Below are positions 10,529 to 46,876 of a DNA stretch of 64,000 nt, piece after piece (position 1 is the first letter of the stretch; each line of letters begins with the position of its first letter). The stretch is from Nocardia alni (GTDB lineage: Bacteria > Actinomycetota > Actinomycetes > Mycobacteriales > Mycobacteriaceae), in contig NZ_JAGPOX010000004.1 in NCBI RefSeq assembly GCF_019038435.1, positions 62,001 to 126,000 on the forward strand. Reading direction: 5' to 3'. The notes under the pieces are model-generated. The model made no database searches. It was not told where the DNA came from and saw only the letters and a list, made by a program, of their open reading frames with translations. A program made the position numbers and the translations under genes.

Positions 10529-10531
10529 GAC

Positions 10532-11872: not shown

Positions 11873-11900
11873 GGTGAACTCCCTTGTGCGGTATGCGGAT

Positions 11901-18140: not shown

Positions 18141-18145
18141 CAGCC

Positions 18146-19399
18146 GTGCACACGATGGATCCGACACACACCGTGGTGATCGTCGGCGCGGGACAGGCCG
18201 GCGCGACCCTCGCCGGCCTGCTCCGACAGCAGAAGTTCACCGGCCGGGTCGTGCTGTGTGGCGCCGAATCCGTTCCGCCCTACCATCGCCCGCCGCTGTC
18301 CAAGAAGTACGACGGCGAGGACTACGTGCAGTGGCTGCGACCGGAATCGTTCTACGCCGACAACGACATCGAGCTTCGCCTGGCCGATCCGGTCGTGCGC
18401 ATCGATCGCGCCGCCCGCACGGCCTCGACACGGTCCGGGCTCGACCTCGCCTACGACACGCTGGTCCTGGCGACCGGCGCCGATCCCCGGGCGCTTCCGA
18501 TTCCCGGAGCCGATTTGTCCGGGGTGATGGCCCTGCGCACGCTCGACGACGCCGCGCGACTGCGCACCGCGGTGCTGGCCGGCGCCCGCCTGGCCATAGT
18601 CGGCGCGGGCTATGTCGGGCTGGAGGTCGCGGCGGCGGCGCGGGCTCGCGGCCGCGAGGTCACCGTGATCGAGCGGGAGGACCGGATCCTCGCGCGGGTG
18701 GCCAGCCCGGAACTGTCGCGCATTCTCACCGACGGTCACCGCGCCCGCGGTACCCGGATACTCACCGGGGCGGCCGTCGAGGAGTTGCTCGGCGACGACG
18801 GCCGCGTGCGCGGCGTGCGGCTCGCGGACGGTCGTGACATCGACTGCGACACAGTGATCGTCGGGATCGGCGCGGTACCGCAGGACGGGCTCGCCCGGGC
18901 GGCGGGCCTGGAATGCGTGGCCGGGATCGTCGTCGACGGCGCCGCGCGGACCAGCGACCCGCACATCCTGGCCATCGGCGACGTCACCCACCGGCTGCAC
19001 GACCGCCTGGGCGCGCTCGTGCGGCTGGAAAGCATTCCGAGCGCGACCGAGCAGGCCGCACAGGCGGCGGCCGTCATCACCGGCGCACCGATTCCGCCGC
19101 ACGAGGTGCCGTGGTTCTGGTCGGACCAGTTCGACCTGAAGATGAAGATGGCGGGCGTTCTCACCCCCGGCACCGAGGCGGTACTGCGCGGCGATCCCGG
19201 CGGCGGCTCGTGTTCGCTGTTCCACCTGGACGCCGACGGCGTCCCCCGCACCGTCGAAACCATCAACGCCGCAGCCGATTTCATGGCGGGCAGGAAGTTC
19301 GTCGGAAATCGGACTCCCCTGAACCGGGCCGCGCTGGCCGACATCGGGACCCCGCTGCGCGAGGTCGCGCGGAGTCCCGCTCACACACGAAGGATTTGA
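18146..19399 (+). CDS. NAD(P)H-dependent ferredoxin reductase (FAD)
   Basis: 417 aa from GTG; an ATG three codons later is equally possible and neither has a clear ribosome site. It has an N-terminal FAD motif (VIVGAGQAGA), PPYHRPPLSKKY, an ATGADPRALP segment and a second Rossmann motif for NAD(P)H (AIVGAGYVGLE). The FAD-binding IGDV follows, then VPWFWSDQF of the rubredoxin/putidaredoxin reductase family. It follows the P450 by 5 nt and should reduce the divergently encoded ferredoxin. Confidence 0.92.
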   Translation: MHTMDPTHTVVIVGAGQAGATLAGLLRQQKFTGRVVLCGAESVPPYHRPPLSKKYDGEDYVQWLRPESFYADNDIELRLADPVVRIDRAARTASTRSGLDLAYDTLVLATGADPRALPIPGADLSGVMALRTLDDAARLRTAVLAGARLAIVGAGYVGLEVAAAARARGREVTVIEREDRILARVASPELSRILTDGHRARGTRILTGAAVEELLGDDGRVRGVRLADGRDIDCDTVIVGIGAVPQDGLARAAGLECVAGIVVDGAARTSDPHILAIGDVTHRLHDRLGALVRLESIPSATEQAAQAAAVITGAPIPPHEVPWFWSDQFDLKMKMAGVLTPGTEAVLRGDPGGGSCSLFHLDADGVPRTVETINAAADFMAGRKFVGNRTPLNRAALADIGTPLREVARSPAHTRRI

Positions 19400-19401
19400 T
19401 C

Positions 19402-20505
19402 ATGCAAGCACTCGCCGCGGTCGCCCGCGCACCACACAGCGAATTCTCCCTCGAGACCATCACCATCGACGGCCCGAAGTCCGGCGAGGTTCTCGTCCGG
19501 ATGGAAGCCGTCGGCATCTGCCACACCGACCTGGCCGCCCGCGACGGGGCGCTCCCGGTCGCGCTTCCCGCGGTGTTCGGCCACGAAGGATGCGGCGTGG
19601 TCGAGGCGGTGGGCGAGGGCGTCACCAAGGTCTCGCCCGGCGACCGGGTCGGCATCACGTTCGCCAGCTGCGGAACCTGCGCCGCCTGTCGCGCCGACTA
19701 CCCCTCCTACTGCCACAACTTCATGCACCTCAACTACGCCGGCGAGCGCCCGGACGGCAGCGGTCCGCTGTCCGCGAACGGTGAGCCGATCACCGGGCTG
19801 TTCTTCGGTCAGTCCAGCTTCGCCACGCACAGCCTGGCACTGGAACGCAACGTCGTGAAGGTGCCCGCCGACCTGCCGGCCGAGATCATCGCGCCGATCG
19901 GCTGCGGAATCCAGACCGGCGCCGGGGCGGTCATGCGTTCCCTGGCCTGCCGGGCGGGCTCGTCGTTGCTCGTCGCCGGGGCGGGCTCGGTCGGGCTGGC
20001 GGCCGTGATGGCGGCCGCGGTGCGCGGGTGCGCGACCATCGTCGTCGTCGAACCGCACGCGTCGCGGCGCGCCCTGGCACTCGAACTCGGTGCGACACAC
20101 GCTATCGACCCGGCCGCGGGCCCGGTCCCGGATCAGGTGCGCGCCATCGTCGCCGAGGGCGTCGACTACGCCATCGACACCTCGGGCCTCCCCGCGGTCA
20201 TCGACGGCCTGGTGAAGTCGATGACCTTCCACGGGAAACTCGGCCTGATCGGGGTACCCGCGAATCCCGAAGCGGCACTGCCGCTCACGGTCATCGACAC
20301 ACTGGTCCTGGGCATCACCATCGTCGGCGTCATCGAAGGCGACAGCATCCCCGACGAGTTCATTCCCGAGCTGATCGAGCTGTTCCGGGCCGGGCGATTC
20401 CCCATCGACAAACTGGTGACGACCTTCCCCTTCACCAAGATCAACGACGCCGTCGCCGCGCAACACCGCGGCGAGGTCCTCAAACCGGTCCTCGTCCACG
20501 AGTGA
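19402..20505 (+). CDS. Zinc-dependent alcohol dehydrogenase (aryl/allyl alcohol type)
   Basis: 367 aa. Catalytic zinc ligands include Cys40 (GICHTD) and His61 (GHEG). Structural zinc ligands are Cys90, Cys93, Cys96 and Cys104. The NAD motif is GAGSVGLA. The family includes benzyl alcohol (XylB-type) and geraniol/perillyl alcohol dehydrogenases. It starts 2 nt after the reductase with AAGGA upstream. In context it oxidises the alcohol produced by the P450 to an aldehyde for the next enzyme. Confidence 0.92.
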   Translation: MQALAAVARAPHSEFSLETITIDGPKSGEVLVRMEAVGICHTDLAARDGALPVALPAVFGHEGCGVVEAVGEGVTKVSPGDRVGITFASCGTCAACRADYPSYCHNFMHLNYAGERPDGSGPLSANGEPITGLFFGQSSFATHSLALERNVVKVPADLPAEIIAPIGCGIQTGAGAVMRSLACRAGSSLLVAGAGSVGLAAVMAAAVRGCATIVVVEPHASRRALALELGATHAIDPAAGPVPDQVRAIVAEGVDYAIDTSGLPAVIDGLVKSMTFHGKLGLIGVPANPEAALPLTVIDTLVLGITIVGVIEGDSIPDEFIPELIELFRAGRFPIDKLVTTFPFTKINDAVAAQHRGEVLKPVLVHE

Positions 20506-20530
20506 ACCACTCCACGCAGAAAGCACGATC

Positions 20531-21970
20531 ATGACCATCGATTACACCGATCTCTATCTCGGCGGGCGCTGGGCCGCGCCGGCCACCGGCTCGATCATTC
20601 CGGTGATCTCACCGAGTACCGAGGAACGCATCGGCTCGGTGCCCGAGGGCGCCGAAGCCGACGTCGACGCCGCGGTCGCCGCTGCCAGAACGGCTTTCGA
20701 CGATCCGAGCGGCTGGGCGCACTGGGACGGCAAGCGCCGCGCGGAAGTACTCGCACGCTTCGCCGAGGAGTTGCAGGCGCGCGGCGAGGAGACCGCGACC
20801 CGGGTCAGCAGCCAGAACGGGATGCCGATCAGCCTCGCGCGGCAGTTCGAAAGCGGCTTTCCCGCAATGCTTGTGCAGTACTACGGCTCGATGGTCGCCG
20901 ACCGGGAGGACGAGATCCGCCCCGGGATGCTCGGCGGCTCCACGGTGGTGACCCGTTCGCCGATCGGTGTCGCCGCCGCGATCGTGCCGTGGAATGTGCC
21001 GCAGGCCATCACCTTTCTGAAAATCGCCCCGGCCCTGGCGGCGGGCTGCACGGTCGTGCTCAAGCCGGCCCCGGAAACCGTCCTCGACGCATTCCTGATG
21101 GCCGAGGCGGCCCATGCCGCGGGCATGCCGCCCGGCGTGCTCAACGTGGTGCCAGGCGGCCGTGAACTCGGCGCCTACCTCGTGCGCCACCCGGGCGTGG
21201 ACAAGGTGTCGTTCACCGGATCGACCGCGGCGGGGCGATCGATCGCCCAGACCTGCGGCGAACTGCTGCGGCCGGTGACCCTGGAATTGGGCGGCAAGTC
21301 GGCGGCCGTCGTGCTCGACGACGCGAACCTCGCCGGCGATATCGAATCCTTCTTCGGCGCAACACTGTTGAACAACGGCCAGATCTGCTGGCTGTGCACC
21401 CGCGTGCTGGCCCCCGCCTCGCGCTACGACGAAATCGTCGACACCATCACCGATCTCGCCAAGACGATCACCGTCGGCGATCCCCTGTCCCCGGACACCG
21501 GCATGGGCCCGCTCGTCTCGGCCCGGCAACGCGATCGAGTGGAGGGCTACATCGCCGCCGGACGCGCCGACGGCGGACGCGTCACCGCGGGCGGCGGGCG
21601 GGCCGGGGACCGCGGCTGGTTCGTCGAGCCGACGGTCTTCGCCGACGTGCGCCCCGAGCACACCATCGCCCGGGAGGAGATCTTCGGGCCCGTGCTGTCG
21701 GTGATTCCCTACACCGACGAGGACGAGGCGGTGGCCGTCGCCAACGGTTCCGACTACGGCCTGGGCGGCACGGTATGGACGGCGGACCCCGACCGCGGCG
21801 CCCGCTTCGCCCGCCGCATCGCCTCGGGCACCGTCGGAGTCAACGGCTACACCAACGACCCGACCGCCCCGTTCGGCGGAATCAAGAACAGCGGCATGGG
21901 CCGTGAACTGGGCCCGGAGGGCCTGGCGGCGTACGAGAACGTCAAGAGCATCTATCTCGACGTGCGCTGA
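20531..21970 (+). CDS. Aldehyde dehydrogenase (NAD(P)+)
   Basis: 479 aa with the general base Glu252 (LELGGK), nucleophile Cys286 (NNGQIC), cofactor motif FTGSTAAG (228-235) and VPWNVPQ. It should oxidise the aldehyde from the alcohol dehydrogenase to a carboxylate. It is the final gene of the P450 operon, 25 nt behind the previous gene and followed by a strong hairpin. The acid produced is a candidate substrate for the CoA ligases at 167-2098 and 7678-9330. Confidence 0.94.
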   Translation: MTIDYTDLYLGGRWAAPATGSIIPVISPSTEERIGSVPEGAEADVDAAVAAARTAFDDPSGWAHWDGKRRAEVLARFAEELQARGEETATRVSSQNGMPISLARQFESGFPAMLVQYYGSMVADREDEIRPGMLGGSTVVTRSPIGVAAAIVPWNVPQAITFLKIAPALAAGCTVVLKPAPETVLDAFLMAEAAHAAGMPPGVLNVVPGGRELGAYLVRHPGVDKVSFTGSTAAGRSIAQTCGELLRPVTLELGGKSAAVVLDDANLAGDIESFFGATLLNNGQICWLCTRVLAPASRYDEIVDTITDLAKTITVGDPLSPDTGMGPLVSARQRDRVEGYIAAGRADGGRVTAGGGRAGDRGWFVEPTVFADVRPEHTIAREEIFGPVLSVIPYTDEDEAVAVANGSDYGLGGTVWTADPDRGARFARRIASGTVGVNGYTNDPTAPFGGIKNSGMGRELGPEGLAAYENVKSIYLDVR

Positions 21971-27403: not shown

Positions 27404-27982
27404 GTGAACAGGACCACGGCGCAGGACCGGCAGACCGAGAGAGTCTGCGACAACTCACGCATCCCCGGCGGCCTCGCATCGTTCCCGACGGTGTGCGACT
27501 GCGACGGATCGCGCCCGCGGTGCGAAGGCCCCGATCTGACGCCGCGGACCGCACTGCTGCTCACCGTCGCAGGTCGGCGACTCGCCGATGAGGTCCGCGC
27601 CCTCGGCACGTCGAGCATGCGGCCCGCGCCGCTGAGCCGCCTCGCATACGCACTGGACGGCTTGGCGCAGACCCTGGAGTGCGGTCTGCGGCCGATGCCG
27701 GGCACGCTGGGCGAACAGTTGTGCCTACACGTAATGATCGCCTACGCAACAGATTTGGCGTTCGAAGTGGGTGACGACCCAGCCGGTGACCTCCCCTACA
27801 GCGAGTACGACTACGACTACGAGCGGCTGTACGACACACTGCTGCCGGACCACCGCTACGAGGGGCTGATCTGGGAGGTCCAGCAGAGCCCGCGCGGCGG
27901 CGGCTGCTTCGATTTCGCCACCCTGTGCGAGGTCACGCCGCCCGGCATCCTGCGTCGGTTGTTCACGCACCCGGCGAAGTAG
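27404..27982 (+). CDS. Hypothetical protein
   Basis: 192 aa, GTG start with GGAGGAG 5 nt upstream. I do not recognise a family. The N-terminus is cysteine-containing (CDNSR, CDCDGSRPRC), the middle is helical (TVAGRRLADEVRAL, LAYALDGLAQTLE), and the C-terminal half has an acidic tyrosine-rich stretch (YSEYDYDYERLYD). There is no signal peptide or membrane segment. It is divergent from the GntR gene and followed by another small unknown gene with its own palindrome. Confidence 0.75.
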   Translation: MNRTTAQDRQTERVCDNSRIPGGLASFPTVCDCDGSRPRCEGPDLTPRTALLLTVAGRRLADEVRALGTSSMRPAPLSRLAYALDGLAQTLECGLRPMPGTLGEQLCLHVMIAYATDLAFEVGDDPAGDLPYSEYDYDYERLYDTLLPDHRYEGLIWEVQQSPRGGGCFDFATLCEVTPPGILRRLFTHPAK

Positions 27983-28003
27983 TCGACACCCACACGTAAC
28001 GTC

Positions 28004-28019
28004 TGTCATGATGATGACA
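28004..28019. promoter_or_regulatory. Inverted repeat before the small unknown gene
   Basis: TGTCAT-GATG-ATGACA, perfect 6-bp arms, lies 48 nt before the ATG at 28067. It is a candidate operator for the short gene and the downstream lactonase-like gene. Confidence 0.45.
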
Positions 28020-28066
28020 TAGTGCACGTAGTTATCTATGTTGATATGGTGACCCTGGAGGTTGAG

Positions 28067-28363
28067 ATGCCCGAATCCATGTTCGACGGCCGCGACACTG
28101 CCGACGAGGAGGACTACGACCTGCTCACCTACTCCGAGGCGGGTATCCGGCTGGATCAGGAGATCGACCGTCAGCGCGCACGCCTCGCGAAGCTCGAATC
28201 GAGTGCGCAACCGGATGACGGCGGCGAGGTCGCCGCATGCCGCGACCGGCTGGCCGCGTTGGAGCAGTCGCGTGAACGGAACTCCCGGCGCGCCATCAAT
28301 GACGACAACTTCGAGCGGTTCTTCGGCTACCCGGCCGCTTCCGCTTCCGACGCCTTCAGTTAG
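28067..28363 (+). CDS. Small hypothetical coiled protein
   Basis: 98 aa from the ATG with GGAGG 5 nt upstream. It is strongly acidic at the N-terminus (DGRDTADEEDYDLL), with a probable coiled coil at about residues 28-70 (LDQEIDRQRARLAKLE, CRDRLAALEQSRER). No known domain is seen. Its stop TAG is part of the ribosome site of the lactonase-fold gene, so the two are coupled. Function unknown. Confidence 0.72.
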   Translation: MPESMFDGRDTADEEDYDLLTYSEAGIRLDQEIDRQRARLAKLESSAQPDDGGEVAACRDRLAALEQSRERNSRRAINDDNFERFFGYPAASASDAFS

Positions 28364-28373
28364 GAGAAGATCA

Positions 28374-29606
28374 TTGGACTCCAAGCGCAGGGAAACGGCA
28401 GGACGGTACGTCGGGCGGCGCGGAGCACTCACCGCCGGTGTGACCGGTGGGGCGCTGCTGGCGCTGGCCATGATCGCGCGGCAGACCATCGGTTCGGGTG
28501 CGCCGACCGCGGCCGGCGCACCCGTCCCCACGGGCGAGCCCACGTACGTCTACGTCTGTTCGAACTCGGTCATGGCCGGGACCCAGCCCGGTAACCCGAT
28601 CGGGATCACCGTCTTCCGGCTCGATTCGCAATCGGGCGCATTGACTCAGGTGCAGCAACTGCACACCACCAATCCGGACTGGCTGGCGATCGACCCGTCC
28701 GGCCGATTCCTTTTCGCCACTTACGCATTGATGGACGGCACGCAGAACGTCGGGGCCGTCGAGGCTTATACGACCGATCCGCGCACCGGCACGCTCACCT
28801 TCGTGAACCGGGTGTCGCTGGGCAACACCAGTCCCGCGCAGATAGCGGTCGCTCCCGACGGTCGGCATGTGGTCGTCGCCAATTACAACTACGGCCAGTA
28901 CGTCGTCCTGCCGGTCGGGGAAGACGGACGACTCGGCCCGGTGAGCAGCTCACTCCAGGACACCGGCAAGGGCCCGAATCCGCGCCAGGATTCCGCACAT
29001 CCGCACGCCGTGGACTTCGATCCGAAGGGCAGGTTCCTCGGCGCGGCCGATCTCGGGACCGACCAAGTACAGATCTTCCGCCTGTCCGGTGGGCAGTTGG
29101 AACGGGTCAGCGAGATATCCACCCCGGCGGGTATGGGTCCACGACACGTCGCCTTCTCCCCTGACAGCCGGACGCTGTACGTGATCGGCGAACTGGACGG
29201 AAATATCATGGCTTTCGCATACAACTCGGAGACCGGTGCGATCGGTCCTGCGCTGCAAACCATTTCGACCGCACCTCCCGGATATTCCGGCGTCCCCAGC
29301 GGTTCGGAGATCGCCGTGCATCCGTCGGGGAATTTCGTCTACGGAGCCAATCGTGGCTCACAGTCCGTCGCCGGCTATCGAATCGATCATTCGACCGGAA
29401 AGCTTTCCACTATCGGCTTCGCCACGCAGGGCGTGAACGTTCCTACCAATTTCGCCATCGATCCGAGCGGCCGGTGGCTCTACGTCAACAGCAATGCGTC
29501 GAACAGCATCGTGCAGTTCGGGATCGATCCCAGCGGTGAACTGAAACCCACCGGCCGCACGACACCCCTGTACGCCCCCAACGTGATGATTTTCCGTGCA
29601 TCTTAG
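28374..29606 (+). CDS. Exported lactonase-fold (beta-propeller) protein
   Basis: 410 aa from a TTG start behind GGAGAAG. The N-terminus has a twin-arginine-like signal (YVGRRGALTAG followed by a hydrophobic run to about residue 37), so export is likely. The mature part shows repeated propeller blades with motifs such as IDPSGRFLF, VAPDGRHVV, FDPKGRFL and IDPSGRWLYV. This is the 6-phosphogluconolactonase/3-carboxymuconate-cyclase-like fold. It may act on an extracellular lactone, though many such proteins have no known activity. The TTG start is inferred from the ribosome site. The stop codon overlaps a recurring palindrome at 29603. Confidence 0.8.
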   Translation: MDSKRRETAGRYVGRRGALTAGVTGGALLALAMIARQTIGSGAPTAAGAPVPTGEPTYVYVCSNSVMAGTQPGNPIGITVFRLDSQSGALTQVQQLHTTNPDWLAIDPSGRFLFATYALMDGTQNVGAVEAYTTDPRTGTLTFVNRVSLGNTSPAQIAVAPDGRHVVVANYNYGQYVVLPVGEDGRLGPVSSSLQDTGKGPNPRQDSAHPHAVDFDPKGRFLGAADLGTDQVQIFRLSGGQLERVSEISTPAGMGPRHVAFSPDSRTLYVIGELDGNIMAFAYNSETGAIGPALQTISTAPPGYSGVPSGSEIAVHPSGNFVYGANRGSQSVAGYRIDHSTGKLSTIGFATQGVNVPTNFAIDPSGRWLYVNSNASNSIVQFGIDPSGELKPTGRTTPLYAPNVMIFRAS

Positions 29607-29662: not shown

Positions 29663-30799
29663 GTGGAGTTCGGATGGTTCGAGGACGACCGGGAATTCCG
29701 GCACGAACTCCGCACGATCATCGAACAGGAGCTGCCCCCACGCTGGGCCGATCTGATTCCCGGCGAGGAGGTCGCCTCGGAATTCGTCCTGAACTTCTGC
29801 CGCACGCTGGGTGAGCGCGGTCTGCTCACCCCGCACTGGCCCAGCGAATACGGCGGGCGCGACGCGTCGGCCTGGCAGTTCATCATCCTCGGCGAGGAGC
29901 TGTGGTCCGCCGGTGAACCGCGCGGCTCCCAGTACATGAACGTGAACTGGATCGGTCCGGCCATCATCAACGCGGGTACGCCGGAGCAGCGTGCATACCA
30001 CCTGGCTCGGATCAGCCGCGGCGATGTCTTCTGGTGCCAGGGCTTTTCCGAGCGCGAGGCGGGAACAGACCTCGCCGCGATGCGCACTCTCGCCAGCCGC
30101 GACGGCGACGACTACGTGATCAACGGCGAGAAGGTGTGGACCTCGTACGCGGGCGTCGCCGACTACTGCTTCCTGCTCGCGCGCACCGATCCGGAAACGA
30201 CCGGAGGACAAGGCATCTCGGTATTCCTGGTACCGACCGACACGCCCGGCTTCAGCATCGAACCGATCCCCGGCGTGCTGGACATCCACGAGTTCAACCG
30301 CCTCACCTTCCGCGACGTGCGAGTCCCCGCCTCGGCGCGGCTCGGCCCGGAGAACCAGGGATGGGCGGTCGTACGGGAAGCGCTGTCGCACGAGCGAATC
30401 GGCGGGCCGCGGTATGCCCGGGCCGCGCAGGTCGCCGAACGCCTCGAAGAATTCGCGCGGGAGTACGGCGAACTCGACCGGGACGGACTGCGCACCCGGT
30501 TCGCCGAGGCGCACGCGGCGTGCCACGCCGCGCGGCTGCTGGTCTACCGAGCGATCCACGAACGGATCAAGAGCAGGCCGGAGGATCTGGCCGTGAGCCA
30601 GGCCCGGGTCGCGATCGTGCGTTCCGAACGGCTCGTCGCGGAACTCGCCCTCGACCTGTTCGAGGACGAGAGCCTGGCGCGGCGGTCGACCGGAAACGCA
30701 CAACTCAAGACGGCGATGATCGCCGGACTCGGCGGAGGCAGCGTCGAGGTGCAACTCAACATGGTGGCCCGGGCCCTGCTCGGGTCCGGTCGGAGGTGA
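29663..30799 (+). CDS. Acyl-CoA dehydrogenase, large-type subunit
   Basis: 378 aa, GTG start behind GGGAGG. FAD-dependent alpha,beta-desaturation of an acyl-CoA. Typical features are FSEREAGTDLAAM, KVWTSYAGVADYCF (flavin and substrate binding) and RLGPENQGWAVV. The partner follows immediately and is shorter, as in the heteromeric FadE pairs of mycobacterial steroid side-chain degradation (FadE28-FadE29). The pair heads the igr-like operon running to 35449. In such heteromers FAD and active site are shared between subunits. The substrate is probably a branched or ring-bearing acyl-CoA. Confidence 0.9.
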   Translation: MEFGWFEDDREFRHELRTIIEQELPPRWADLIPGEEVASEFVLNFCRTLGERGLLTPHWPSEYGGRDASAWQFIILGEELWSAGEPRGSQYMNVNWIGPAIINAGTPEQRAYHLARISRGDVFWCQGFSEREAGTDLAAMRTLASRDGDDYVINGEKVWTSYAGVADYCFLLARTDPETTGGQGISVFLVPTDTPGFSIEPIPGVLDIHEFNRLTFRDVRVPASARLGPENQGWAVVREALSHERIGGPRYARAAQVAERLEEFAREYGELDRDGLRTRFAEAHAACHAARLLVYRAIHERIKSRPEDLAVSQARVAIVRSERLVAELALDLFEDESLARRSTGNAQLKTAMIAGLGGGSVEVQLNMVARALLGSGRR

Positions 30800-30804
30800 G
30801 TGGG

Positions 30805-31728
30805 ATGGACTTCGATCTTGATCCCGGCCAGCAGAAGCAACTGGTCGCGTTGGACGAGGTCATCGAGGCGTGCGGTGGTATCGACCGCGCCCGCCAAGTG
30901 GCGCGGACCGGCGGCCACGACGAGCGGCTCGACGCCGAACTCACGGCCGCGGGACTTCTCGACTCGGCCGCCTTCCTGGATCGGGTGCTGATCGCGGAAC
31001 GGCTTGCTGAGCTCGGCGTCGCGACGGGCTTCGGGCTGCGAGCGGTCGTCGCCGCGGACGACATCCGCCTGCCCAATGGACCGCTGGCGGTGCTCGACAC
31101 TCGGCGTAATGGCCCGGTGCTCGACGGCCGGCGAGGCGGGCCGGTGCGCTACGCCGCGGTGGCATCGTCAGTGCTCCTCCTCGGCGACGAGACACGGATC
31201 TGCGAGGCAGGCGAGATCGACATCGAACCTATGGAGTCGAGCTTCGGTTTCGGCTATGCGCGGGTGCGCGCCGCCCCAGGTGCGGGCACACCGCTCGCGG
31301 TCCCGGCCGAGGTGATCCGCCGTCGCCGACGGCTCGCACTGGCCGCCGAGATCGCCGGCGCCGCCGCAGGTGGAATCGCGCACACCGCTGGCTATCTGAG
31401 CACTCGCGAGCAGTTCGGCAAGCCGCTGTCGACCTTCCAGGCACTGCGCCATCGGATATCCGAGGCGGCCGTCTCGGCGGAGGCGGCCCGATGGATGACC
31501 CGGGAGGCGGCCTGGTCCGGCGACGAGCAGAGCGCATTGCTCGCCGCGTCGTACGCGGCGCAGACGGCCGCGGTCCTGGTCCCCGAGCTGACTCAGATGT
31601 CCGGCGCCCGTGGGTTCACACACGAGTTCGGGCTGCACGTGTACACGATGCGCCTTGCCGGACTGCGACTGGAACTCGGTGCACCGGACCGCATAGCGGT
31701 CGAACTGGCGGCGAGTCGTGCGCACTGA
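30805..31728 (+). CDS. Acyl-CoA dehydrogenase-like small subunit
   Basis: 307 aa from ATG with GGAGG 8 nt upstream; an in-frame GTG three codons earlier would overlap the previous stop. It is shorter than a standalone dehydrogenase (about 380). The C-terminal domain is recognisable (AGYLSTREQFGKPLSTFQAL and RGFTHEFGLHVYTMRLAG), while the N-terminal part is divergent. It probably forms a heteromer with the preceding protein. Confidence 0.85.
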   Translation: MDFDLDPGQQKQLVALDEVIEACGGIDRARQVARTGGHDERLDAELTAAGLLDSAAFLDRVLIAERLAELGVATGFGLRAVVAADDIRLPNGPLAVLDTRRNGPVLDGRRGGPVRYAAVASSVLLLGDETRICEAGEIDIEPMESSFGFGYARVRAAPGAGTPLAVPAEVIRRRRRLALAAEIAGAAAGGIAHTAGYLSTREQFGKPLSTFQALRHRISEAAVSAEAARWMTREAAWSGDEQSALLAASYAAQTAAVLVPELTQMSGARGFTHEFGLHVYTMRLAGLRLELGAPDRIAVELAASRAH

Positions 31729-32206
31729 CGAGCGCGGGCCCGTGATCGACGCCCGCGCCCGCGAACTCATCGGGACCGTGACGTTCACCTGGACATCCGA
31801 ACCTGTGTCCCTGCGTCAGGTGCGCGAGTACGTCGCGGCGACCGGGGGCCGCCCGGAACAGTGGGGCGATCCGGGTGATCCACACGCACCGGTGCCGACG
31901 CCGCCGCTGTTCTTCCACGCGGCATGCCGCCCCGTGGTGGCGCTCGCCGATTTGCTGGAGGACGGCCAGTACCCCTTCCTCGGGGTCCCGGGTGTGCGCG
32001 GGCGGTCGATGGCCGGTGGACAGAGCTACGAGATCCTCGCCCCCGTGCGGGTCGGCGACGTCCTCACGGTCCGCGAACGACTGAGCTCGCTGAGCGAGAA
32101 GCAGGGCCGGTCGGGCCCGCTGGTCATCACCGAGACCGAGAGCGAGTACACCAACGGTGACGACGTACTCGTCGCCCGCTTCCGGCAGACGGTGATCTTC
32201 CGATGA
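31718..32206 (+). CDS. MaoC/FAS1-type dehydratase-like hot-dog protein
   Basis: 162 aa, GTG start overlapping the previous gene by 11 nt; a GTG at 31742 is an alternative. The sequence matches the N-terminal FAS1-dehydratase-like half seen in ChsH2-type hydratase subunits: PTPPLFFHAA, GVRGRSMAGGQSYEI, VRVGDVLTVRERL. It usually forms a heteromer with a second MaoC protein, here the next gene, to hydrate an enoyl-CoA made by the dehydrogenase pair. Confidence 0.83.
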   Translation: MRTDERGPVIDARARELIGTVTFTWTSEPVSLRQVREYVAATGGRPEQWGDPGDPHAPVPTPPLFFHAACRPVVALADLLEDGQYPFLGVPGVRGRSMAGGQSYEILAPVRVGDVLTVRERLSSLSEKQGRSGPLVITETESEYTNGDDVLVARFRQTVIFR

Positions 32207-32661
32207 GCGTGCCGACCCGGAGCTTCTCCGAGATTCGCGTCGGCGACGAACTGCCGGCCGCGACTCACACTCCCACCCGCCTGACGTTGTTCCTGTTCGG
32301 CGTCGCCTACTGGACCGCCCACCGCATTCACTACGACGTCGAACTCGCCAGAGCCGAGGGATACGACGACGTGCTGGTGACCGCGAACCTGCTCAGCGCC
32401 TACCTCGCCGCACTGGCGACGGGCTGGGCGGGCGATCCCGATTGCCTGGTCGCCCTGTCCGAACGCAACCTCTCCCCCGCTGTAGCCGGCGACACGCTGA
32501 CGATCCGGGGAACGGTCGCCGAACTGATCCCGGACACCGAGGGCGGTGGAATCGCGGACTGCGCACTCACCGTCGAGCAGGCCGACGGCACGGTCGTCGT
32601 CAGCGCCACGGCCACGCTGCGCCTGCCGGCCTCAGCCGAAAAGCCATGCAGTACTGAATAG
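32203..32661 (+). CDS. MaoC-like enoyl-CoA hydratase subunit
   Basis: 152 aa, ATGA overlap with the preceding gene. Hot-dog fold with the hydratase segment AYWTAHRIHYDVELARAEGY, in which Asp and His are the likely catalytic residues. It is analogous to ChsH1 of the mycobacterial igr operon. Together with the previous protein it should hydrate an alpha,beta-unsaturated CoA ester. Confidence 0.85.
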   Translation: MSVPTRSFSEIRVGDELPAATHTPTRLTLFLFGVAYWTAHRIHYDVELARAEGYDDVLVTANLLSAYLAALATGWAGDPDCLVALSERNLSPAVAGDTLTIRGTVAELIPDTEGGGIADCALTVEQADGTVVVSATATLRLPASAEKPCSTE

Positions 32662-32680
32662 AACACAAAGGAGGAGGGAC

Positions 32681-33811
32681 ATGCCCCTTCAGAATCACCA
32701 CGAAATCCTCTCGGTGGACGACCATCTCATCGAACATCCACGCGTCTGGCAGGACCGTCTCCCGCAGAAGTACCGCGAGGTCGGCCCGCGCATCATCGAG
32801 GACGAGAACAAGCACCACGTGTGGCGTTACGAGGGCCGCAACTTTCCGCAGATCGGCCTGAACGCCGTGGCGGGCAAGGATCCTCGGGACTTCGGCACCG
32901 AGCCGGTCCGCTACGAGGACATGATCCCCGGATGCTACGACCCGGCCGCGCGGGTCAAGGATATGGACCTGGACGGTGTCAAGGCGGCCATGTGTTATCC
33001 CTCGTTCCCAGGCTTCGCCGGGCGGGTGTTCATGCAGGCCGACGATCGGGAGCTCGCGGAGCTGTGCGTCCAGGCCTGGAACGACTTTCACATCGACGAA
33101 TGGTGCGGCGCCGCGCCCGACCGGTTCATCCCCATGGTGATGGCGCCGTTCTGGGATATCCGCGCGAGCGTCAAGGAGATCGAGCGCGTGGCGGGCAAGG
33201 GTGCCCGTGGCCTCACCTTCCCGGAGAATCCGGTCCCGCTGGGGCTGCCGTCGTTCCACACCCGGCACTGGGACGACCTGTTCTCCGCGCTCGAGGACGC
33301 GGACATGCCGCTGTGCCTGCACTTCGGGTCGTCGTCGCTGGCGCCCGGTTTCGCGCAGGACGCGCCCTTCGCGGTGGAGATCTCACTGTTCGCCACGAAC
33401 CTCATGTGGACCACGTCGGATCTGCTGTTCTCCGGTGTGCTGCAACGGCATCCGAAGTTGAAGATCGTGCTGGCCGAGGGCGGGATCGGCTGGATTCCGT
33501 ATATCACCGAACGGTGCGACTACACCTGGGAGCGGCACCGCTGGTACATGGACATCGACAAGGAGACCCGGCCGTCGGAGCTGTTCCGCAAGCACTTCTA
33601 CGGGTGTTTCATCGATGACGAACACGGCGTGAAGAACCGGCACGAGATCGGCATCGACCGGATCACCTTCGAGGTGGACTACCCCCACTCGGATTCGAAC
33701 TGGCCCAATACGCGGCGCAGGGCCGCGCAGGTGCTCGCCGACGTGCCGGATGACGAAGTGGAACAGATGCTTTCGGGCAACGTCCGCACGCTGTTCAACT
33801 TCGGCAACTGA
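32681..33811 (+). CDS. Amidohydrolase-family (ACMSD-like) metalloenzyme
   Basis: 376 aa, very strong AAGGAGGAG before the ATG. Members use a divalent metal in a TIM barrel for hydrolysis or decarboxylation of ring or dicarboxylic compounds. Visible candidates for metal or catalytic residues are VDDHLIEHP near the N-terminus, LHFGSSS, the EGGIGWIPY segment and the VDYPHSDSNWP motif. It sits between the hydratase and aldolase modules, where igr operons have no such gene, so it may open a ring or decarboxylate an intermediate. Exact reaction unknown. Confidence 0.85.
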   Translation: MPLQNHHEILSVDDHLIEHPRVWQDRLPQKYREVGPRIIEDENKHHVWRYEGRNFPQIGLNAVAGKDPRDFGTEPVRYEDMIPGCYDPAARVKDMDLDGVKAAMCYPSFPGFAGRVFMQADDRELAELCVQAWNDFHIDEWCGAAPDRFIPMVMAPFWDIRASVKEIERVAGKGARGLTFPENPVPLGLPSFHTRHWDDLFSALEDADMPLCLHFGSSSLAPGFAQDAPFAVEISLFATNLMWTTSDLLFSGVLQRHPKLKIVLAEGGIGWIPYITERCDYTWERHRWYMDIDKETRPSELFRKHFYGCFIDDEHGVKNRHEIGIDRITFEVDYPHSDSNWPNTRRRAAQVLADVPDDEVEQMLSGNVRTLFNFGN

Positions 33812-33827
33812 GACTCGGAGGATCATC

Positions 33828-34262
33828 ATCGCCACCGACATCAGGGTCACCGCCGACCCCTTGCTTCATCGGCTACGCCCACAGCAGGACCCGCTCACCG
33901 AATTCTTCTGGCACAGCGGCGCAGACGGGCTCCTACGCGTGCAGACCTGCTCGGACTGCGGGTATCGTACCCATCCCGCGGGTCCGGTCTGCGCCCGCTG
34001 CCTGAGCTCACGAGTCGGCCCGCAGCCGGTCTCCGGGCTCGGCGCCGTGCTCAGCTACACCGTCAACGTGCAACAGTGGACACCTGGTCAGGAGCCCTAT
34101 GTGGTCGCCTGGGTCGGCCTCGACGAGCAGGAAGACCTGCGCCTGACGACCAATATCGTCGACTGCGATCCGTGGTCGGTCTCGATCGGCGATCGGGTCC
34201 AGGTCGCCTTTCTCGAACGCCACGGCTACCACTACCCGCTGTTCCGGCCGGTGACGCCATGA
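33828..34262 (+). CDS. DUF35/OB-fold zinc-ribbon acyl-CoA-associated protein
   Basis: About 144 aa. A zinc ribbon (CSDCGYRTHPAGPVCARC) is followed by an OB-fold. This is the DUF35 pair that activates Ltp2-type aldolases and is the C-terminal half of ChsH2 in mycobacteria. The start is unclear. GGAGG is followed by three successive ATC codons, and no ATG or GTG is available nearby. The nearest standard alternatives are a TTG at 33861, or an ATG at 33750 inside the upstream gene. I place the start at the ATC with correct spacing. Its ATGA overlap with the thiolase-fold gene supports a complex. Confidence 0.72.
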   Translation: MATDIRVTADPLLHRLRPQQDPLTEFFWHSGADGLLRVQTCSDCGYRTHPAGPVCARCLSSRVGPQPVSGLGAVLSYTVNVQQWTPGQEPYVVAWVGLDEQEDLRLTTNIVDCDPWSVSIGDRVQVAFLERHGYHYPLFRPVTP

Positions 34263-35449
34263 CCCGGCATTTCGAGCACGACAGCGTCATCTCCGGCGCC
34301 GGCCGCTCAGCGTCCGGCCGTCGCCTGGGCCGCTCCCCTGCCGATCTCACCGTCGAGGCCGCGCTGGCCGCGATCCGCGACGCGGGCCTGACCCGCGACG
34401 ACATCGACGGCATCTCGACGTATCCCGGCGGCGACGCCGTGCCCTCGCACGGCTACGGCGGCCCGCCGAGCTACATCGTGCAGGACGCGCTGCGCCTGCG
34501 CCCGACCTGGTTCCAGGGGGCCGCAGAGCTGCCCGGCCAGCTCGGCGCGCTCGTCGCGGCGATGACCGCGGTCTCGGCGGGCCTGGCGCGACACGTGCTC
34601 GTCTACCGCACGGTGACCGAGTCCAGCGCCCAGGGCACGGGCGGCCGCCGCGCGGTCTTCGACCCGGACGGGGACGCTGTCAGTATGGCCGGCTGGCTCA
34701 CCCCGTTCGGGGCGCCGTCGGCCGCGAATTGGCTCGCACTGCTGGCGGCTCGGCACTTCCATGAGTTCGGCACCACGCGCGAGCAGCTCGCCCGGATCCC
34801 ACTGACCTGCCGCCGCCACGCCGCGCTGAACCCGCACGCGATCTACCGGCAGCCGCTGTCGCTCGAGGAGTACCTCGACGCCCGCATGGTCTCCACGCCG
34901 TTGTGCCTGTACGACTGCGACGTCCCGATCGACGGCTCGGTCGCCTTCGTGATCTCCGCGGCCGAATACGCCCCGGACACCGCGACGCCGCCGGTCTATA
35001 TCGAGGCGGTCGGAACCGCTGTAGGACAACGGTTTTCCTGGGACCAGCAGGAGAACCTCACCGCGATGGCCGCCACGGGCGCCGCCGGGCACATGTGGAG
35101 CCGCACCACCCTCACCCCCGCCGACGTCGACGTGGCCCAGCTCTACGACGGGTTCAGCATCCTGACCCTGGCCTGGCTGGAGGCGATGGGATTCTGCGAG
35201 CCCGGAGAGGGCGGCGCCTACATCGAGGGCGGTTCCCGCATAGCGCTGAACGGTGAGCTGCCGCTCAACACCGGCGGCGGGCAACTGTCCGGCGGACGCC
35301 TGCACGGTTTCGGTCTCATCGAGGAGGCCGTGCTCCAGTTGCGCGGGGCCGCAGGGGATCGGCAGGTCAGCGGCGCGAGGGTAGCCGCGGTCGGTAACGG
35401 CGGCGGCCCCATCGCGGGCGCGATGTTGCTTACCTCCCAACGGATCTGA
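34259..35449 (+). CDS. Thiolase-fold aldolase (Ltp2/SCP-x-like), probable retro-aldolase
   Basis: 396 aa, coupled by ATGA to the DUF35 gene. The usual thiolase nucleophilic cysteine is missing: the region that normally carries NxxCxSG reads GAAELPGQLGALVAA. The tyrosine-bearing motif QLYDGFSILTL and the C-terminal NTGGGQLSGGRLHGFGLIEE match Ltp2-type lipid-transfer-protein aldolases, which cleave beta-hydroxyacyl-CoAs to a ketone and propionyl- or acetyl-CoA. It is therefore likely a lyase, not a thiolase. Last gene of the igr-like operon, followed by a hairpin. Confidence 0.85.
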   Translation: MTRHFEHDSVISGAGRSASGRRLGRSPADLTVEAALAAIRDAGLTRDDIDGISTYPGGDAVPSHGYGGPPSYIVQDALRLRPTWFQGAAELPGQLGALVAAMTAVSAGLARHVLVYRTVTESSAQGTGGRRAVFDPDGDAVSMAGWLTPFGAPSAANWLALLAARHFHEFGTTREQLARIPLTCRRHAALNPHAIYRQPLSLEEYLDARMVSTPLCLYDCDVPIDGSVAFVISAAEYAPDTATPPVYIEAVGTAVGQRFSWDQQENLTAMAATGAAGHMWSRTTLTPADVDVAQLYDGFSILTLAWLEAMGFCEPGEGGAYIEGGSRIALNGELPLNTGGGQLSGGRLHGFGLIEEAVLQLRGAAGDRQVSGARVAAVGNGGGPIAGAMLLTSQRI

Positions 35450-35663: not shown

Positions 35664-36554
35664 ATGCACAGTGCGACAGTGGATACCACGGCGAACGGCA
35701 CGACGCCCGTCGGATTCATCGGCGTCGGCGATATGGGCGGCCCCATCGTCGGCCACATCGCCGCGAACGGCTTCCCCACCACGGTCTGGGCCCGGCGCCC
35801 CGCCCAACTCGACCAGTTCCGCGAAACCACCCTGACCAGCGCCGCCTCCCCCGCGGAACTCGCCGCAGGCAGTGAGGTAATCGGCCTTTGCGTATTCGGC
35901 GACGCCGATGTCCGGGAGGTGATAACAGGCCCGGACGGAATCCTCGAAGGCGCCCGCTCCGGGTCCGTCGTCGTCGTGCACAGCACGATAGCGCCCGACA
36001 CCTGTCGCGAGCTGGCCGCGGCGTGTGCGGCGGCCGGGCTGGCCCTGGTCGACGCCCCCGTCACCGGCGCCCGCGCGAGTGCCCTCGCCGCCACCCTGAC
36101 CGTCATGATCGGCGGCGAGGTCGAGCACGTCGAACGGGTCCGCCCGGTCCTGTCGTGCTATGCCCAGCGGATCGTCCACGTGGGCGGCTTGGGCGCGGGC
36201 CAGACGATGAAGACGCTGAACAATGTGCTGGGCGCTGCCACCGGCCGATTGGCTTGCATCGCAATCGAAATCGCCGAACGCCTCCGCCTGGACCCGGTGC
36301 AGGCCATGGAGGTGCTCCGTGTCGGCAGCGCCGGCAGCGCGGCCTTGAACTCCATCGCGTCCCGCCTGCTGAGCGACGCCGAATTCGCCGAGCACGCACG
36401 CCAATTGATCGCGAAGGACGCCGCGCTGTTCGGACAGGTCCGCGCGGCCGCGGGCGCACCCGAGTCGATACTGGAACGCCTGGCCCTGGAACGGGCAGAA
36501 CAGATCATCCCCACCTTCGAGCGCGCCTTCGTCCCCGCCCCACTCGATTCCTGA
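35664..36554 (+). CDS. 3-Hydroxyisobutyrate dehydrogenase-family NAD(P) oxidoreductase
   Basis: 296 aa. Rossmann motif GFIGVGDMGGP (17-27), the substrate-binding segment DAPVTGARA, and the catalytic lysine in MKTLNN are all typical of beta-hydroxyacid dehydrogenases. It should oxidise or reduce a small beta-hydroxyacid. It stands alone with AAAGGA before the ATG and converges with the acyl-CoA dehydrogenase gene. It could be linked to valine-like or branched acid breakdown, but the context does not fix the substrate. Confidence 0.9.
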   Translation: MHSATVDTTANGTTPVGFIGVGDMGGPIVGHIAANGFPTTVWARRPAQLDQFRETTLTSAASPAELAAGSEVIGLCVFGDADVREVITGPDGILEGARSGSVVVVHSTIAPDTCRELAAACAAAGLALVDAPVTGARASALAATLTVMIGGEVEHVERVRPVLSCYAQRIVHVGGLGAGQTMKTLNNVLGAATGRLACIAIEIAERLRLDPVQAMEVLRVGSAGSAALNSIASRLLSDAEFAEHARQLIAKDAALFGQVRAAAGAPESILERLALERAEQIIPTFERAFVPAPLDS

Positions 36555-36774: not shown

Positions 36775-37926
36775 CTAGGGCGCCAAATTCAGTTCTCGCC
36801 CGATGATCTCGCGCATGACCTCGCTGGTTCCGGCGTAGATTCGCTGGACCCGGCTGTCGCGCCACAGCCGGGAGATCTCGTATTCGTCCATGTAACCCGC
36901 TCCCCCGAACAGTTGCAGGCACGCGTCGACGACCTCGCCGTGGCGTTCGCTGGTCCACAGTTTGAGGGCGGCGGCCTCGGTGTTGGACAGCTCGCCGGCG
37001 ATGTGTAGTTCGATGGCTCGGTCGACGTATGCGCGGGCGGCGGACAGGGTTGTCGCGACGGTCGCGAGGACGAATCGGGTGTTCTGCAGCGATCCCAGGG
37101 GGGTGCCGAATACGCGGCGGGTGCGGACGAACTCCTCGGTCAGCGAGAGCGCCCGTGTCATCACGGCTACCGAGTGGACGGCGCAGCCCAGGCGTTCCTG
37201 GGGCAGGCCGGTCATCAGGTGGTAGAAGCCGCGGTTCTCCTGGCCGATCAGGTTGGTGGCAGGCACGCGGACGTCGGAGAAGAACAGTTCGGCGGTGTCC
37301 TGGGCGTGCATACCGGCCTTGGCGAGGTTGCGACCGCGGGTGAAGCCGGGCATATCGCGTTCCACTGCGAGCAGGCTGATTCCTCGGTGACCGGCGGCCG
37401 GATCCGTTTTGGCGACCACGACGACCAGATCGGACAGGATGCCGTTGGTGATGTACGTCTTGGATCCGTTGAGGATGTAGTGGTCACCGTCGCGCACGGC
37501 CGTCGAGCCGATGGCCTTGAGGTCCGAGCCCGCCCCGGGCTCGGACATCGCGACCGCGGTGATCAGCTCACCACTGACCCAGCCCGACAGCCAGCGCCGC
37601 TGCTGTTCCTCGGTGGTGAGGTCGAGCAGGTAGGGCGGCATGACGTCGTTGTGCAGCGCGTAGCCGAAGCCCGCGCACCCGGCGCCGATGAACTCCTCGG
37701 TCAGCACGGCGTTGTAGCGGTAGTCACGAATGCCCGTGCCGCCGAAGCGTTCCGGCGCCTCCCAGCCGAGCAGGCCGATACTGCCCGCCTTGCGCCACAC
37801 CTCCCGGTCGACGATCCCGTCGCGCTCCCACTGCGCGGTGTGCGGCGCGCACTCCTTCTCGAAGAAGGATCGGGCCAGCGCCCGGAAGTCCTCGTGGTCC
37901 TCGGTGAAGATCGTTCTCGGCAACAT
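36775..37926 (-). CDS. Acyl-CoA dehydrogenase (full-length, FadE type)
   Basis: 383 aa. It has AMSEPGAGSDLKAI, KTYITNGILSDLVVVVAKT and RIYAGTSEVMREIIGREL. The position occupied by catalytic Glu in medium-chain enzymes is Ala (IYAGT), as is frequent in mycobacterial FadE proteins. The base is probably Glu of GLPQERLG, as in isovaleryl-CoA dehydrogenase. It lies alone on the minus strand, divergent from the ABC transporter genes, with a TAACnnnGTTA-like site at 37967 between them. Confidence 0.92.
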   Translation of the reverse strand: MLPRTIFTEDHEDFRALARSFFEKECAPHTAQWERDGIVDREVWRKAGSIGLLGWEAPERFGGTGIRDYRYNAVLTEEFIGAGCAGFGYALHNDVMPPYLLDLTTEEQQRRWLSGWVSGELITAVAMSEPGAGSDLKAIGSTAVRDGDHYILNGSKTYITNGILSDLVVVVAKTDPAAGHRGISLLAVERDMPGFTRGRNLAKAGMHAQDTAELFFSDVRVPATNLIGQENRGFYHLMTGLPQERLGCAVHSVAVMTRALSLTEEFVRTRRVFGTPLGSLQNTRFVLATVATTLSAARAYVDRAIELHIAGELSNTEAAALKLWTSERHGEVVDACLQLFGGAGYMDEYEISRLWRDSRVQRIYAGTSEVMREIIGRELNLAP

Positions 37927-46102: not shown

Positions 46103-46876
46103 ATGGAACTGCGCGGATCATCCGCGATCGTCACCGGAGGCGCGTCGGGCCTGGGCGAGGCCACCGTGCGGCGGCTGAAGGACGAGGGCGCGAAGGTCCT
46201 CATCCTGGACGTCAACGACGAGCGGGGCAAACAACTCGCCGCGGAACTCGGCGTCGAGTACGCCCACGCAGACATCACCAGCGAGGCGGATGTCATCGCC
46301 GCCGTCGAGGCCGCGACCGCACTCGCACCGCTGCGCGCGACGGTGAGCTGCGCGGGCGGCGGCGGCCTCGGCGGCCGCACGATCGGCCGGGACGGCTCCT
46401 ACGGCTCCGCGCATTCGCTGGAGTCCTATACGAACTTCGTGATGCTGAACCTCGTCGGGACGTTCAACGTCATCAGGCTGGCCGCCACCGCGATGTCCCG
46501 CAACGAACCCGATGCCGACGGCGGCCGCGGCGCCATCGTGACCACGGCGAGCGTCGCGGCGTTCGAGGGACAGATCGGTCAGGCGGGCTACGGCTCGGCG
46601 AAGGCGGGCATCGTGGGATTGACCCTGCCCGTCGCCCGCGACCTGGCCGCCGCGGGCATTCGCATCAACACCATCGCACCGGGCCTGTTCGATACGCCGC
46701 CGATGCGCGCCTGGGGGACCGAGATGCGCGATTCCCTGGCCGCCACCATTCCCTTTCCCAAACGATTGGGCGACCCGGCGGAATTCGCTGCGCTCGCAAC
46801 GCATCTGCTGACAAACTCCTATGTCAACGGGCAGACGTTCCGCCTCGACGGCGCCGTCCGGATGCAGCCGAAGTGA
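46103..46876 (+). CDS. SDR, 3-hydroxyacyl-CoA dehydrogenase type II-like (HSD10-like)
   Basis: 257 aa from ATG with GGAGGAG upstream. TGGASGLG motif (11-18), an insertion containing GGGGLGGRTIGRDG typical of HSD10-like 3-hydroxyacyl-CoA dehydrogenases, the catalytic YGSAK and APGLFDTPPM. It should oxidise a 3-hydroxyacyl-CoA. First gene of a five-gene operon with enoyl-CoA hydratase, thiolase, MBL hydrolase and another SDR; its stop overlaps the next start. Confidence 0.9.
   Translation: MELRGSSAIVTGGASGLGEATVRRLKDEGAKVLILDVNDERGKQLAAELGVEYAHADITSEADVIAAVEAATALAPLRATVSCAGGGGLGGRTIGRDGSYGSAHSLESYTNFVMLNLVGTFNVIRLAATAMSRNEPDADGGRGAIVTTASVAAFEGQIGQAGYGSAKAGIVGLTLPVARDLAAAGIRINTIAPGLFDTPPMRAWGTEMRDSLAATIPFPKRLGDPAEFAALATHLLTNSYVNGQTFRLDGAVRMQPK

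Follow-up and report, generated by a model that had tools for sequence, protein, structure and literature searches.

What does a gene that looks like an amidohydrolase do in the middle of an operon that otherwise follows the layout of the mycobacterial igr operon for cholesterol side-chain degradation? The question is raised by a 64,000-nucleotide stretch of the approximately 10 Mb genome of Nocardia alni (contig NZ_JAGPOX010000004.1; hereafter the window, meaning the whole stretch analyzed), in which seven tightly spaced genes occupy positions 29663-35449 of the plus strand. The answer we favor, with a probability of about one half, is that this is a catabolic operon in which the presumed amidohydrolase is an amidohydrolase-related dinuclear oxygenase (ARO) that beta-hydroxylates a bulky acyl-CoA, which an aldolase associated with a DUF35 protein then cleaves. 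The substrate would be a bulky, probably ring-bearing or branched acyl-CoA. The ARO (32681-33811) would insert oxygen at the beta-carbon where ordinary beta-oxidation is blocked, and the Ltp2-like aldolase, held by its DUF35 partner, would cut the alpha-beta bond by retro-aldol cleavage, so that a shortened acyl-CoA is left and a ketone or aldehyde is released. A neighboring beta-oxidation turn on the same substrate would be served by the heteromeric dehydrogenase and the two-subunit hydratase encoded in the same operon, and a small protein encoded at 28067-28363 would be a dedicated helper of the oxygenase. The sequence data show the gene order, the ligand residues, the modeled fold, the clade of the aldolase, the co-occurrence across genomes and the position of the small protein next to AROs of this clade; the oxygenase activity, the beta position, the order of the steps, the substrate and the role of the small protein are what we infer. 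The seven genes are the following.

29663-30799, plus strand: acyl-CoA dehydrogenase, large partner of a heteromeric pair (Pfam Acyl-CoA_dh N, M and C domains; best PDB matches 4x28_A and 6wy9_A)
30805-31728, plus strand: small partner of the acyl-CoA dehydrogenase, 307 aa (Pfam matches to C-terminal Acyl-CoA_dh only; best PDB match 6wy8_A)
31718-32206, plus strand, start at 31718 or 31742: FAS1_DH or hot-dog hydratase subunit (Pfam FAS1_DH_region; weak PDB matches)
32203-32661, plus strand: MaoC/HadB-like hydratase subunit (FAS1_DH_region at 22.1 against a cut-off of 22 bits; HadB-like in NCBIfam; sequence HRIHYD)
32681-33811, plus strand: putative ARO (Pfam Amidohydro_2; D13, H15, H214, E266, D333, H336 and D338)
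33828-34262, plus strand: DUF35 protein with a C-x2-C-x10-C-x2-C zinc ribbon and an OB fold (Pfam zf-ChsH2 and OB_ChsH2_C)
34259-35449, plus strand: Ltp2-like aldolase of a YDGF/GRLHG clade, with Y296 and R347 (Pfam Thiolase_C_1; motifs and tree)

An earlier note on this DNA had described the fifth gene as an ACMSD-like amidohydrolase. By sequence, the closest PDB entries are DitZ (8uyr, 3e-69) and PtmU3 (6omp, 5e-34); the matches to AibH2 and other AROs are weaker (1e-13 to 1e-10), and those to ACMSD structures weaker still (about 1e-9). AibH2 binds two metals through Asp25, His27, His211, Glu265, Asp337 and His340, and its Asp342 (Glu313 in PtmU3) completes the metal site (PMC7782822). All six metal-binding residues are present in the window protein, as D13, H15, H214, E266, D333 and H336, respectively, and the seventh site residue is present as D338; the N-terminal pair, D13 and H15, was mapped through the alignments with DitZ and PtmU3, the AibH2 alignment starting at residue 82. 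In an alignment of 23 rows H214, E266, D333, H336 and D338 are invariant, and D13 and H15 are at least 90% conserved. The structure predicted from this alignment (pLDDT 89.7) has a TIM-barrel fold close to those of PtmU3, AibH2 and SfbO, and Foldseek comparisons with solved folds gave TM-scores of 0.92 for DitZ, 0.81 for PtmU3 and about 0.7 for ACMSD, SfbO and AibH2. Enzymes of this type have been named amidohydrolase-related dinuclear oxygenases (PMC10811679, PMC10401708). Judged from ligand residues and predicted fold, the protein encoded at 32681-33811 is best read as one of them, and the assignment to ACMSD is not supported, since both the ligand set and the closest structures point to dinuclear oxygenases. 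Comparable genes of PF04909 carry the annotation "amidohydrolase family protein" only.

DitZ, the closest solved structure, is a Mn-substituted protein from Rhodococcus rhodochrous and is 31% identical to the window ARO in the fold alignment; we found no literature on it among the top-ranked open-licence PubMed Central matches. PtmU3, the platensimycin and platencin hydroxylase, shares the PF04909 TIM-barrel fold and the dinuclear ligand set at 23% identity in the fold alignment. The hydroxylation by PtmU3 reportedly prepares ring cleavage, and a search of the open-licence PubMed Central literature found no aldolase in platensimycin A-ring cleavage. According to its published description, PtmU3 beta-hydroxylates diterpenoids and takes substrates that are ligated to CoA (PMC7782822). 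The context of the window gene differs in that it looks catabolic, with aldolase and DUF35 genes adjoining.

The aldolase itself has as its closest solved relative the Ltp2 of the Ltp2-DUF35 complex from Thermomonospora curvata (6ok1, 1e-54), and is an Ltp2 relative without the thiolase active-site cysteine, as the earlier note proposed. Its description as Cys-less is correct for the thiolase active-site positions; the protein as a whole contains four cysteines (184, 216, 220 and 313). An SCP2-type thiolase was ruled out: at positions 86-90 the window protein has QGAAE where two rows with an HDCF motif (L044 and L049) have ENACA, and it has YDGF in place of HDCF. In the T. curvata enzyme (TcLtp2), Tyr294 of the YDHF motif is the base and Tyr344 the acid (PMC12329534). 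The window aldolase keeps the tyrosine equivalent to Y294 in its Y296-D-G-F motif, and Arg347 aligns with Tyr344. In a maximum-likelihood tree of 67 sequences (six identical rows having been removed from 73) 49 YDGF rows fall on one side of a branch with support 100/98, and TcLtp2 and a YDHF Ltp2 from the same Nocardia genome (L011) on the other; the tree carries a long-branch warning, which includes the pair L010 and L158 inside the YDGF group. YDGF and GR-x-HG are the motifs of the clade to which the window aldolase belongs. YDGF occurs in 38 of the 51 Ltp2-family frames of the loci examined, namely 36 in 79 named loci that were selected by ARO and two (L009 and L010) in the window's own genome; a YDGF aldolase is thus found in the DNA examined at 36 of the 79 ARO loci, and in 30 of the 57 that are full length.

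The genome holds 13 Ltp2-family places, and one of them, L011, is an igr-like operon with a fused 314-aa ChsH2 next to its YDHF Ltp2. Because the window aldolase belongs to a separate clade and because L011 exists, the window operon is not the steroid-type side-chain operon of this genome, which bears out, at the level of sequence comparison, the earlier view that the aldolase is not a steroid orthologue. By the earlier note's own account, clustering with true steroid side-chain orthologues together with cholesterol degradation through these proteins would refute it; in the tree the aldolase does not cluster in that way. A second ARO-aldolase pair was seen in the same genome (L010, contig C44); its ARO and aldolase are 42% and 35% identical to those of the window, the aldolase motifs are YDGF and NGRMHG, and an aldehyde dehydrogenase gene lies in the gap of about 1.1 kb that separates the two.

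Compared with the igr system of ChsH1, ChsH2 and Ltp2, the order of dehydrogenase pair, hydratase pair and aldolase is the same, and the C-x2-C-x10-C-x2-C ribbon of DUF35 and the catalytic tyrosine of YD-x-F are common to both; the dehydrogenase and hydratase pairs are present at the level of family (Pfam, PDB), and the heteromers are predicted. The window differs from igr in that DUF35 is not fused to a hydratase (ChsH2 is fused in L011), in having YDGF and Arg347 for YDHF and Tyr344, in the separate clade of its aldolase, and in the dinuclear-oxygenase gene that lies between. A DUF35-bound Ltp2-like aldolase is also found in the Sal-Shy bile-acid aldolase/hydratase of Comamonas testosteroni; Sal, however, has YDCY with a catalytic cysteine, and its DUF35 a C3H1 zinc finger (PMC12329534), whereas the window has YDGF and a C4 ribbon.

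The earlier note described the separate DUF35 gene as part of a split ChsH2. The separate gene is real, but it is not odd. In 20 aldolase loci sampled without regard to ARO, DUF35 is fused in 12 and separate in seven, and thus fused or near in 19 of 20. The idea of a split was dropped, as DUF35 is usually fused to or beside the YDGF-type aldolase. The 20 loci were chosen manually, with a single locus taken per genome from among 46 aldolase-containing genomes (described below), and genomes already drawn on for other loci were passed over; several come from one genus, and one (L172) is cut at a contig end. Three loci (L009:9495-11153, L153:9558-11243 and L155:11550-13223) encode DUF35 and a YDGF aldolase as one protein of about 555 aa, and HIBADH-like and DoxX genes adjoin the fused gene in L009 and L153.

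The earlier note called the amidohydrolase gene "inserted". Does the ARO belong with the aldolase? Using E-value limits fixed before the results (1e-60 for the ARO, 1e-80 for the aldolase), and among the matches listed, the ARO is present in 72 and the aldolase in 46 of 246 actinomycete genomes, and all 46 aldolase genomes also hold the ARO. Counted by genus, the ARO is found in 16 of 16 aldolase genera compared to 23 of 103 genera overall. Among 148 Nocardia genomes, and again among the matches listed, 67 have the ARO, 65 the aldolase and 64 both, with three having only the ARO and one only the aldolase. The amidohydrolase is therefore not the oddity of this operon; the unusual part is the dehydrogenase and hydratase genes. 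The FAS1_DH gene (31718-32206) has no relative at E<=1e-20 in the 245 other actinomycete genomes, and the small dehydrogenase subunit has only three relatives in Nocardia, at 33-35% identity (E<=1e-30). Since aldolase and ARO are widespread and these two genes are nearly without close relatives, the operon, from these comparisons, joins an oxygenase-aldolase core that is widespread to a dehydrogenase/hydratase set that is nearly its own.

The two genes also tend to be neighbors. At least 29 of 126 Nocardia aldolase matches have a listed ARO within 10 kb, where uniform placement predicts about 1.1, and at least 46 of 126 have one within 25 kb, where 2.7 are expected; these counts use the ARO matches listed and are lower bounds. 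A pure chance neighborhood was rejected on the basis of this excess and the genome-level co-occurrence. As a control, run after the other analyses, we took a catabolic thiolase of the window. From its match list 136 rows were used, those from most genomes lacking the ARO being left out, and of the 114 rows in genomes with a listed ARO eight have one within 10 kb, where about 1.1 are expected, and 14 have one within 25 kb, where the expectation is 2.6. Because the thiolase thus shows an approximately 7-fold excess, only part of the 26-fold excess for the aldolase is specific. Genome-level co-occurrence and the small protein weigh more in the case than proximity, and for this reason we left our confidence unchanged after the control.

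The association extends beyond the Actinomycetota. Among plasmid records (E<=1e-40) 26 carry an ARO, 26 an Ltp2-like relative and 17 both; the latter include plasmids of Massilia, Sphingopyxis, Caulobacter, Sphingomonas and Novosphingobium. On the Massilia plasmid, whose aldolase has the motifs YDGF and GRLHG, 11 bp separate ARO and aldolase. Two of the plasmids that carry the pair, from Rhodococcus DK17 and DK180, originate from crude-oil-contaminated soil. In the 20 sampled aldolase loci the genes within 10 kb include a PF04909 member (two types, counted together) in 12, a P450 gene in 11, an acyl-CoA dehydrogenase in 12 and a crotonase in 11, and four MaoC-type queries found no MaoC-type (igr-type) hydratase within 10 kb in any of the 20; families were called with few window-derived queries at 1e-6, which makes the absences soft. 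The second PF04909 type (about 395 aa, approximately 21% identical to the window ARO) is near the aldolase in 11 of the 20 loci, for example at L154:6592-7788 and L155:18710-19891, and by eye shows D-x-H, His, Glu and D-x-x-H-x-E. We did not find the ARO-aldolase pairing described in open-licence PubMed Central, among the titles and abstract starts ranked highest.

A further link is a short gene upstream of the operon.

28067-28363, plus strand, frame open from 28022: small ARO-associated protein, 98 aa from the chosen start (hidden Markov model match, 5e-14)

In several related loci a frame of about 75 aa lies directly 3' of the ARO gene, and an alignment of such proteins that includes the window copy (A2) has the conserved core D-x-x-D-x-D-L-L-T-x-x-x-A-x-x-x-L-x-x-E-I. 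A hidden Markov model built without the window copy gave a single match in the window at E<=10, which is 28067-28363 at 5e-14. Four members had no Pfam or NCBIfam family above cut-off; the scan gave two chance-level Pfam matches (E about 0.15). The small protein was found in 13 of the 246 genomes, and these coincide with the 13 whose ARO shares 61% identity or more with that of the window; the 61% cut-off was picked after seeing the list, and profile A2 contains rows from five of the 13 genomes (window, G231, G199, G181 and G159), which match by construction. Of 19 places with the small protein, 15 have an ARO of at least 56% identity within 5 kb, and in 13 the distance to it is no more than 150 bp; the four that are not near such an ARO all belong to one genus (g38). 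The Nocardia genome under study has two copies, one 4.4 kb from the window ARO and one 8 bp from the second ARO. In the 79 ARO loci the model, which includes rows from two of them (L037 and L070) and from genomes of the same genus, finds the small protein in 67, at most 300 bp from the ARO frame in 63 and in both orientations, and does not find it in 12. The six AibH2 ligands are conserved in the window ARO; in its relation to AibH2 and SfbO it differs in that a small unclassified protein, and no Rieske-like gene, adjoins AROs of the window type. The simplest reading of this distribution is that the small protein is a dedicated helper of this ARO clade. The minus-strand frame 27725-28543, which methods based on frame length may call as a gene, is antisense to the small-protein gene and is probably false.

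Several observations weigh against an oxygenase that feeds the aldolase. The hydratase pair of the window operon could make a beta-hydroxyacyl-CoA without an oxygenase, and the crotonase-type genes near 11 of the 20 sampled aldolases could also hydrate. Y344, the proposed general acid of TcLtp2, is replaced by arginine in the window protein, so that aldolase chemistry is not assured. Among the matches listed, 26 of the 72 genomes with an ARO have no aldolase; the co-occurrence counts depend in part on shared ancestry, a PF04909 gene is absent within 10 kb in eight of the 20 sampled loci, and the thiolase control reveals a general clustering of catabolic genes near AROs. Furthermore, a Rieske gene adjoins 90% of AibH2-like genes, although it is not part of a strict definition (PMC10401708), whereas a motif scan of the 79 loci, some of them truncated, and of the window found no frame with a Rieske motif below 320 aa within 4 kb of the ARO (0/79 loci).

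These points lead to the strongest alternative, in which the operon follows an igr-like route: the dehydrogenase and hydratase pairs make the beta-hydroxyacyl-CoA, DUF35 and aldolase cleave it, and the ARO hydroxylates ring or chain elsewhere, earlier or later. The hydratase pair directly precedes the ARO in the igr-like order, the aldolase keeps the tyrosine equivalent to Y294 of TcLtp2, and the sampled aldolases have crotonase (11 of 20) and acyl-CoA dehydrogenase genes (12 of 20) nearby, eight of them having no PF04909 gene within 10 kb. However, MaoC-type hydratases were not found in the 20 loci, and the small dehydrogenase and FAS1_DH subunits are nearly without close relatives, whereas the ARO is present in 46 of 46 aldolase genomes. 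We consider this route unlikely, though deserving of serious attention. An operon for a natural product rather than for degradation is improbable. PtmU3 provides the precedent for it, but the neighboring genes (thiolase, enoyl-CoA hydratase, dehydrogenases, CoA ligase and, by eye, an ABC uptake set) are typical of catabolism, and the Rhodococcus DK17 and DK180 plasmids that carry both genes come from crude-oil-contaminated soil.

We give still less credence to an ACMSD-like mononuclear hydrolase, hydratase or decarboxylase. The protein belongs to PF04909, and its predicted fold does match ACMSD structures (TM about 0.7). However, the metal site of ACMSD uses an H-x-H mononuclear Zn ligand set, and the window protein instead has D13-x-H15 and E266 within the D-x-H, His, Glu, D-x-x-H-x-D set of the dinuclear members, with DitZ and PtmU3 clearly closer in sequence and fold; an ACMSD-like decarboxylase was rejected on the basis of the ligand set and the nearest structures. 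Heteromeric acyl-CoA dehydrogenases are of a kind used on steroids. Two-subunit hydratases are likewise of a kind used on steroids (PMC11321319). A diverged cholesterol or bile-acid side-chain operon, to which the gene order and the presence of both these enzyme kinds would point, is nevertheless the least probable explanation, as the tree places the aldolase apart from TcLtp2 and from the YDHF Ltp2 of this genome, the genome has a separate igr-like operon with a fused ChsH2, and the two hydratase genes have no ChsH1 or ChsH2 structure match at E<=0.01 in a PDB sequence search. A true steroid orthologue was rejected on the basis of the tree and of the separate igr-like operon.

Returning to the proposed oxygenase-aldolase operon, all seven genes are found on the plus strand in the igr-like order that had been described, as open reading frames supported by Pfam. 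The intergenic spacing from the first to the seventh gene is +5, -11 (+13 if the third gene starts at 31742), -4, +19, +16 and -4 bp, the last being the overlap of the DUF35 and aldolase genes. The best NCBIfam match of the second gene (30805-31728) is the IpdE2 model, at 56 bits far below the cut-off of 450. The FAS1_DH subunit (31718-32206) is probably the non-catalytic partner of the hydratase, and the catalytic histidine of the MaoC/HadB-like subunit would lie within HRIHYD. The DUF35 frame has no ATG, GTG or TTG at its ribosome site; six bases beyond GGAGG (33817-33821) comes ATC at 33828, which aligns with the ATG start of the DUF35 relative in a Dactylosporangium locus (L015), and translation probably starts at this ATC. 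The co-directional block reaches upstream of the first gene to include the small protein (28067-28363) and a lactonase (28440-29606), the former lying upstream of the lactonase and the operon. The flanking features are these.

28440-29606, plus strand: beta-propeller lactonase (PF10282), 56 bp upstream of the first gene
35664-36554, plus strand: beta-hydroxyacid dehydrogenase (HIBADH-like), with relatives near the aldolase in five of the 20 sampled loci and in L009, L153 and L164
16275-21970: 2Fe-2S ferredoxin (minus strand) and P450, both identified by Pfam, followed by ferredoxin reductase, alcohol dehydrogenase and aldehyde dehydrogenase, identified by eye

The lactonase presumably belongs to the operon transcript, the HIBADH-like enzyme is a possible follow-on enzyme, and the set at 16275-21970 likely performs a methyl-to-carboxyl oxidation. 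The surroundings further include a thiolase, an enoyl-CoA hydratase, acyl-CoA dehydrogenases, a CoA ligase and, by eye, an ABC uptake set of the branched-chain type. In agreement with the earlier note, a Pfam scan of 31 window proteins recognized no steroid ring gene; for the remaining called proteins the judgment came only from BLAST comparisons with one another or from inspection by eye. The nearest locus by ARO identity (77%) is L015 from Dactylosporangium, which also carries relatives (62-82%) of the window acyl-CoA dehydrogenases 36775-37926 and 55123-56301, CoA ligase 50617-52182, short-chain dehydrogenase/reductase 46103-46876, enoyl-CoA hydratase 46873-47682, P450 58811-59887 and ferredoxin reductase 57257-58483. 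Because L015 carries relatives of these genes, the pathway probably spans much of the right half of the window. In loci L160-L163 genes for P450, acyl-CoA dehydrogenases and an aldehyde dehydrogenase come after the ARO gene, with DUF35 and aldolase nearby.

Two sets of a BcrAD/BadFG-type activase with paired HGD-D (2-hydroxyacyl-CoA dehydratase-like) genes lie on the minus strand at 3106-6573 and 9575-13073, the first identified by Pfam and the second by similarity; their host is a Nocardia and presumably aerobic. Relatives of these genes (54-65%) adjoin a DUF35-aldolase pair on a Sphingopyxis plasmid (L171). HGD-D genes are found in three of the 246 actinomycete genomes, which is too rare for use as a link. 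The neighbors that encode P450, CoA ligase, dehydrogenase and 2-hydroxyacyl-CoA dehydratase point to a bulky acid, without naming it, and a bulky terpenoid or alicyclic acid would fit; a search for cyclohexylacetate lyase genes found nothing useful in open-licence PubMed Central.

The genomic link between the ARO clade, the DUF35-aldolase clade and the small protein points to a definite reaction that can be assayed and to a protein that may co-purify. More tentatively than for the single operon, we suggest that the oxygenase-aldolase pair may represent a widespread O2-dependent way to cleave C-C bonds of acyl-CoAs whose beta-oxidation is blocked, with the effector of about 75 aa replacing the Rieske partner. 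If this is true, many poorly annotated catabolic clusters of mycobacteria, nocardiae and some Pseudomonadota would find an explanation, and the known hydratase route into retro-aldol cleavage would gain a counterpart that starts from an oxygenase.

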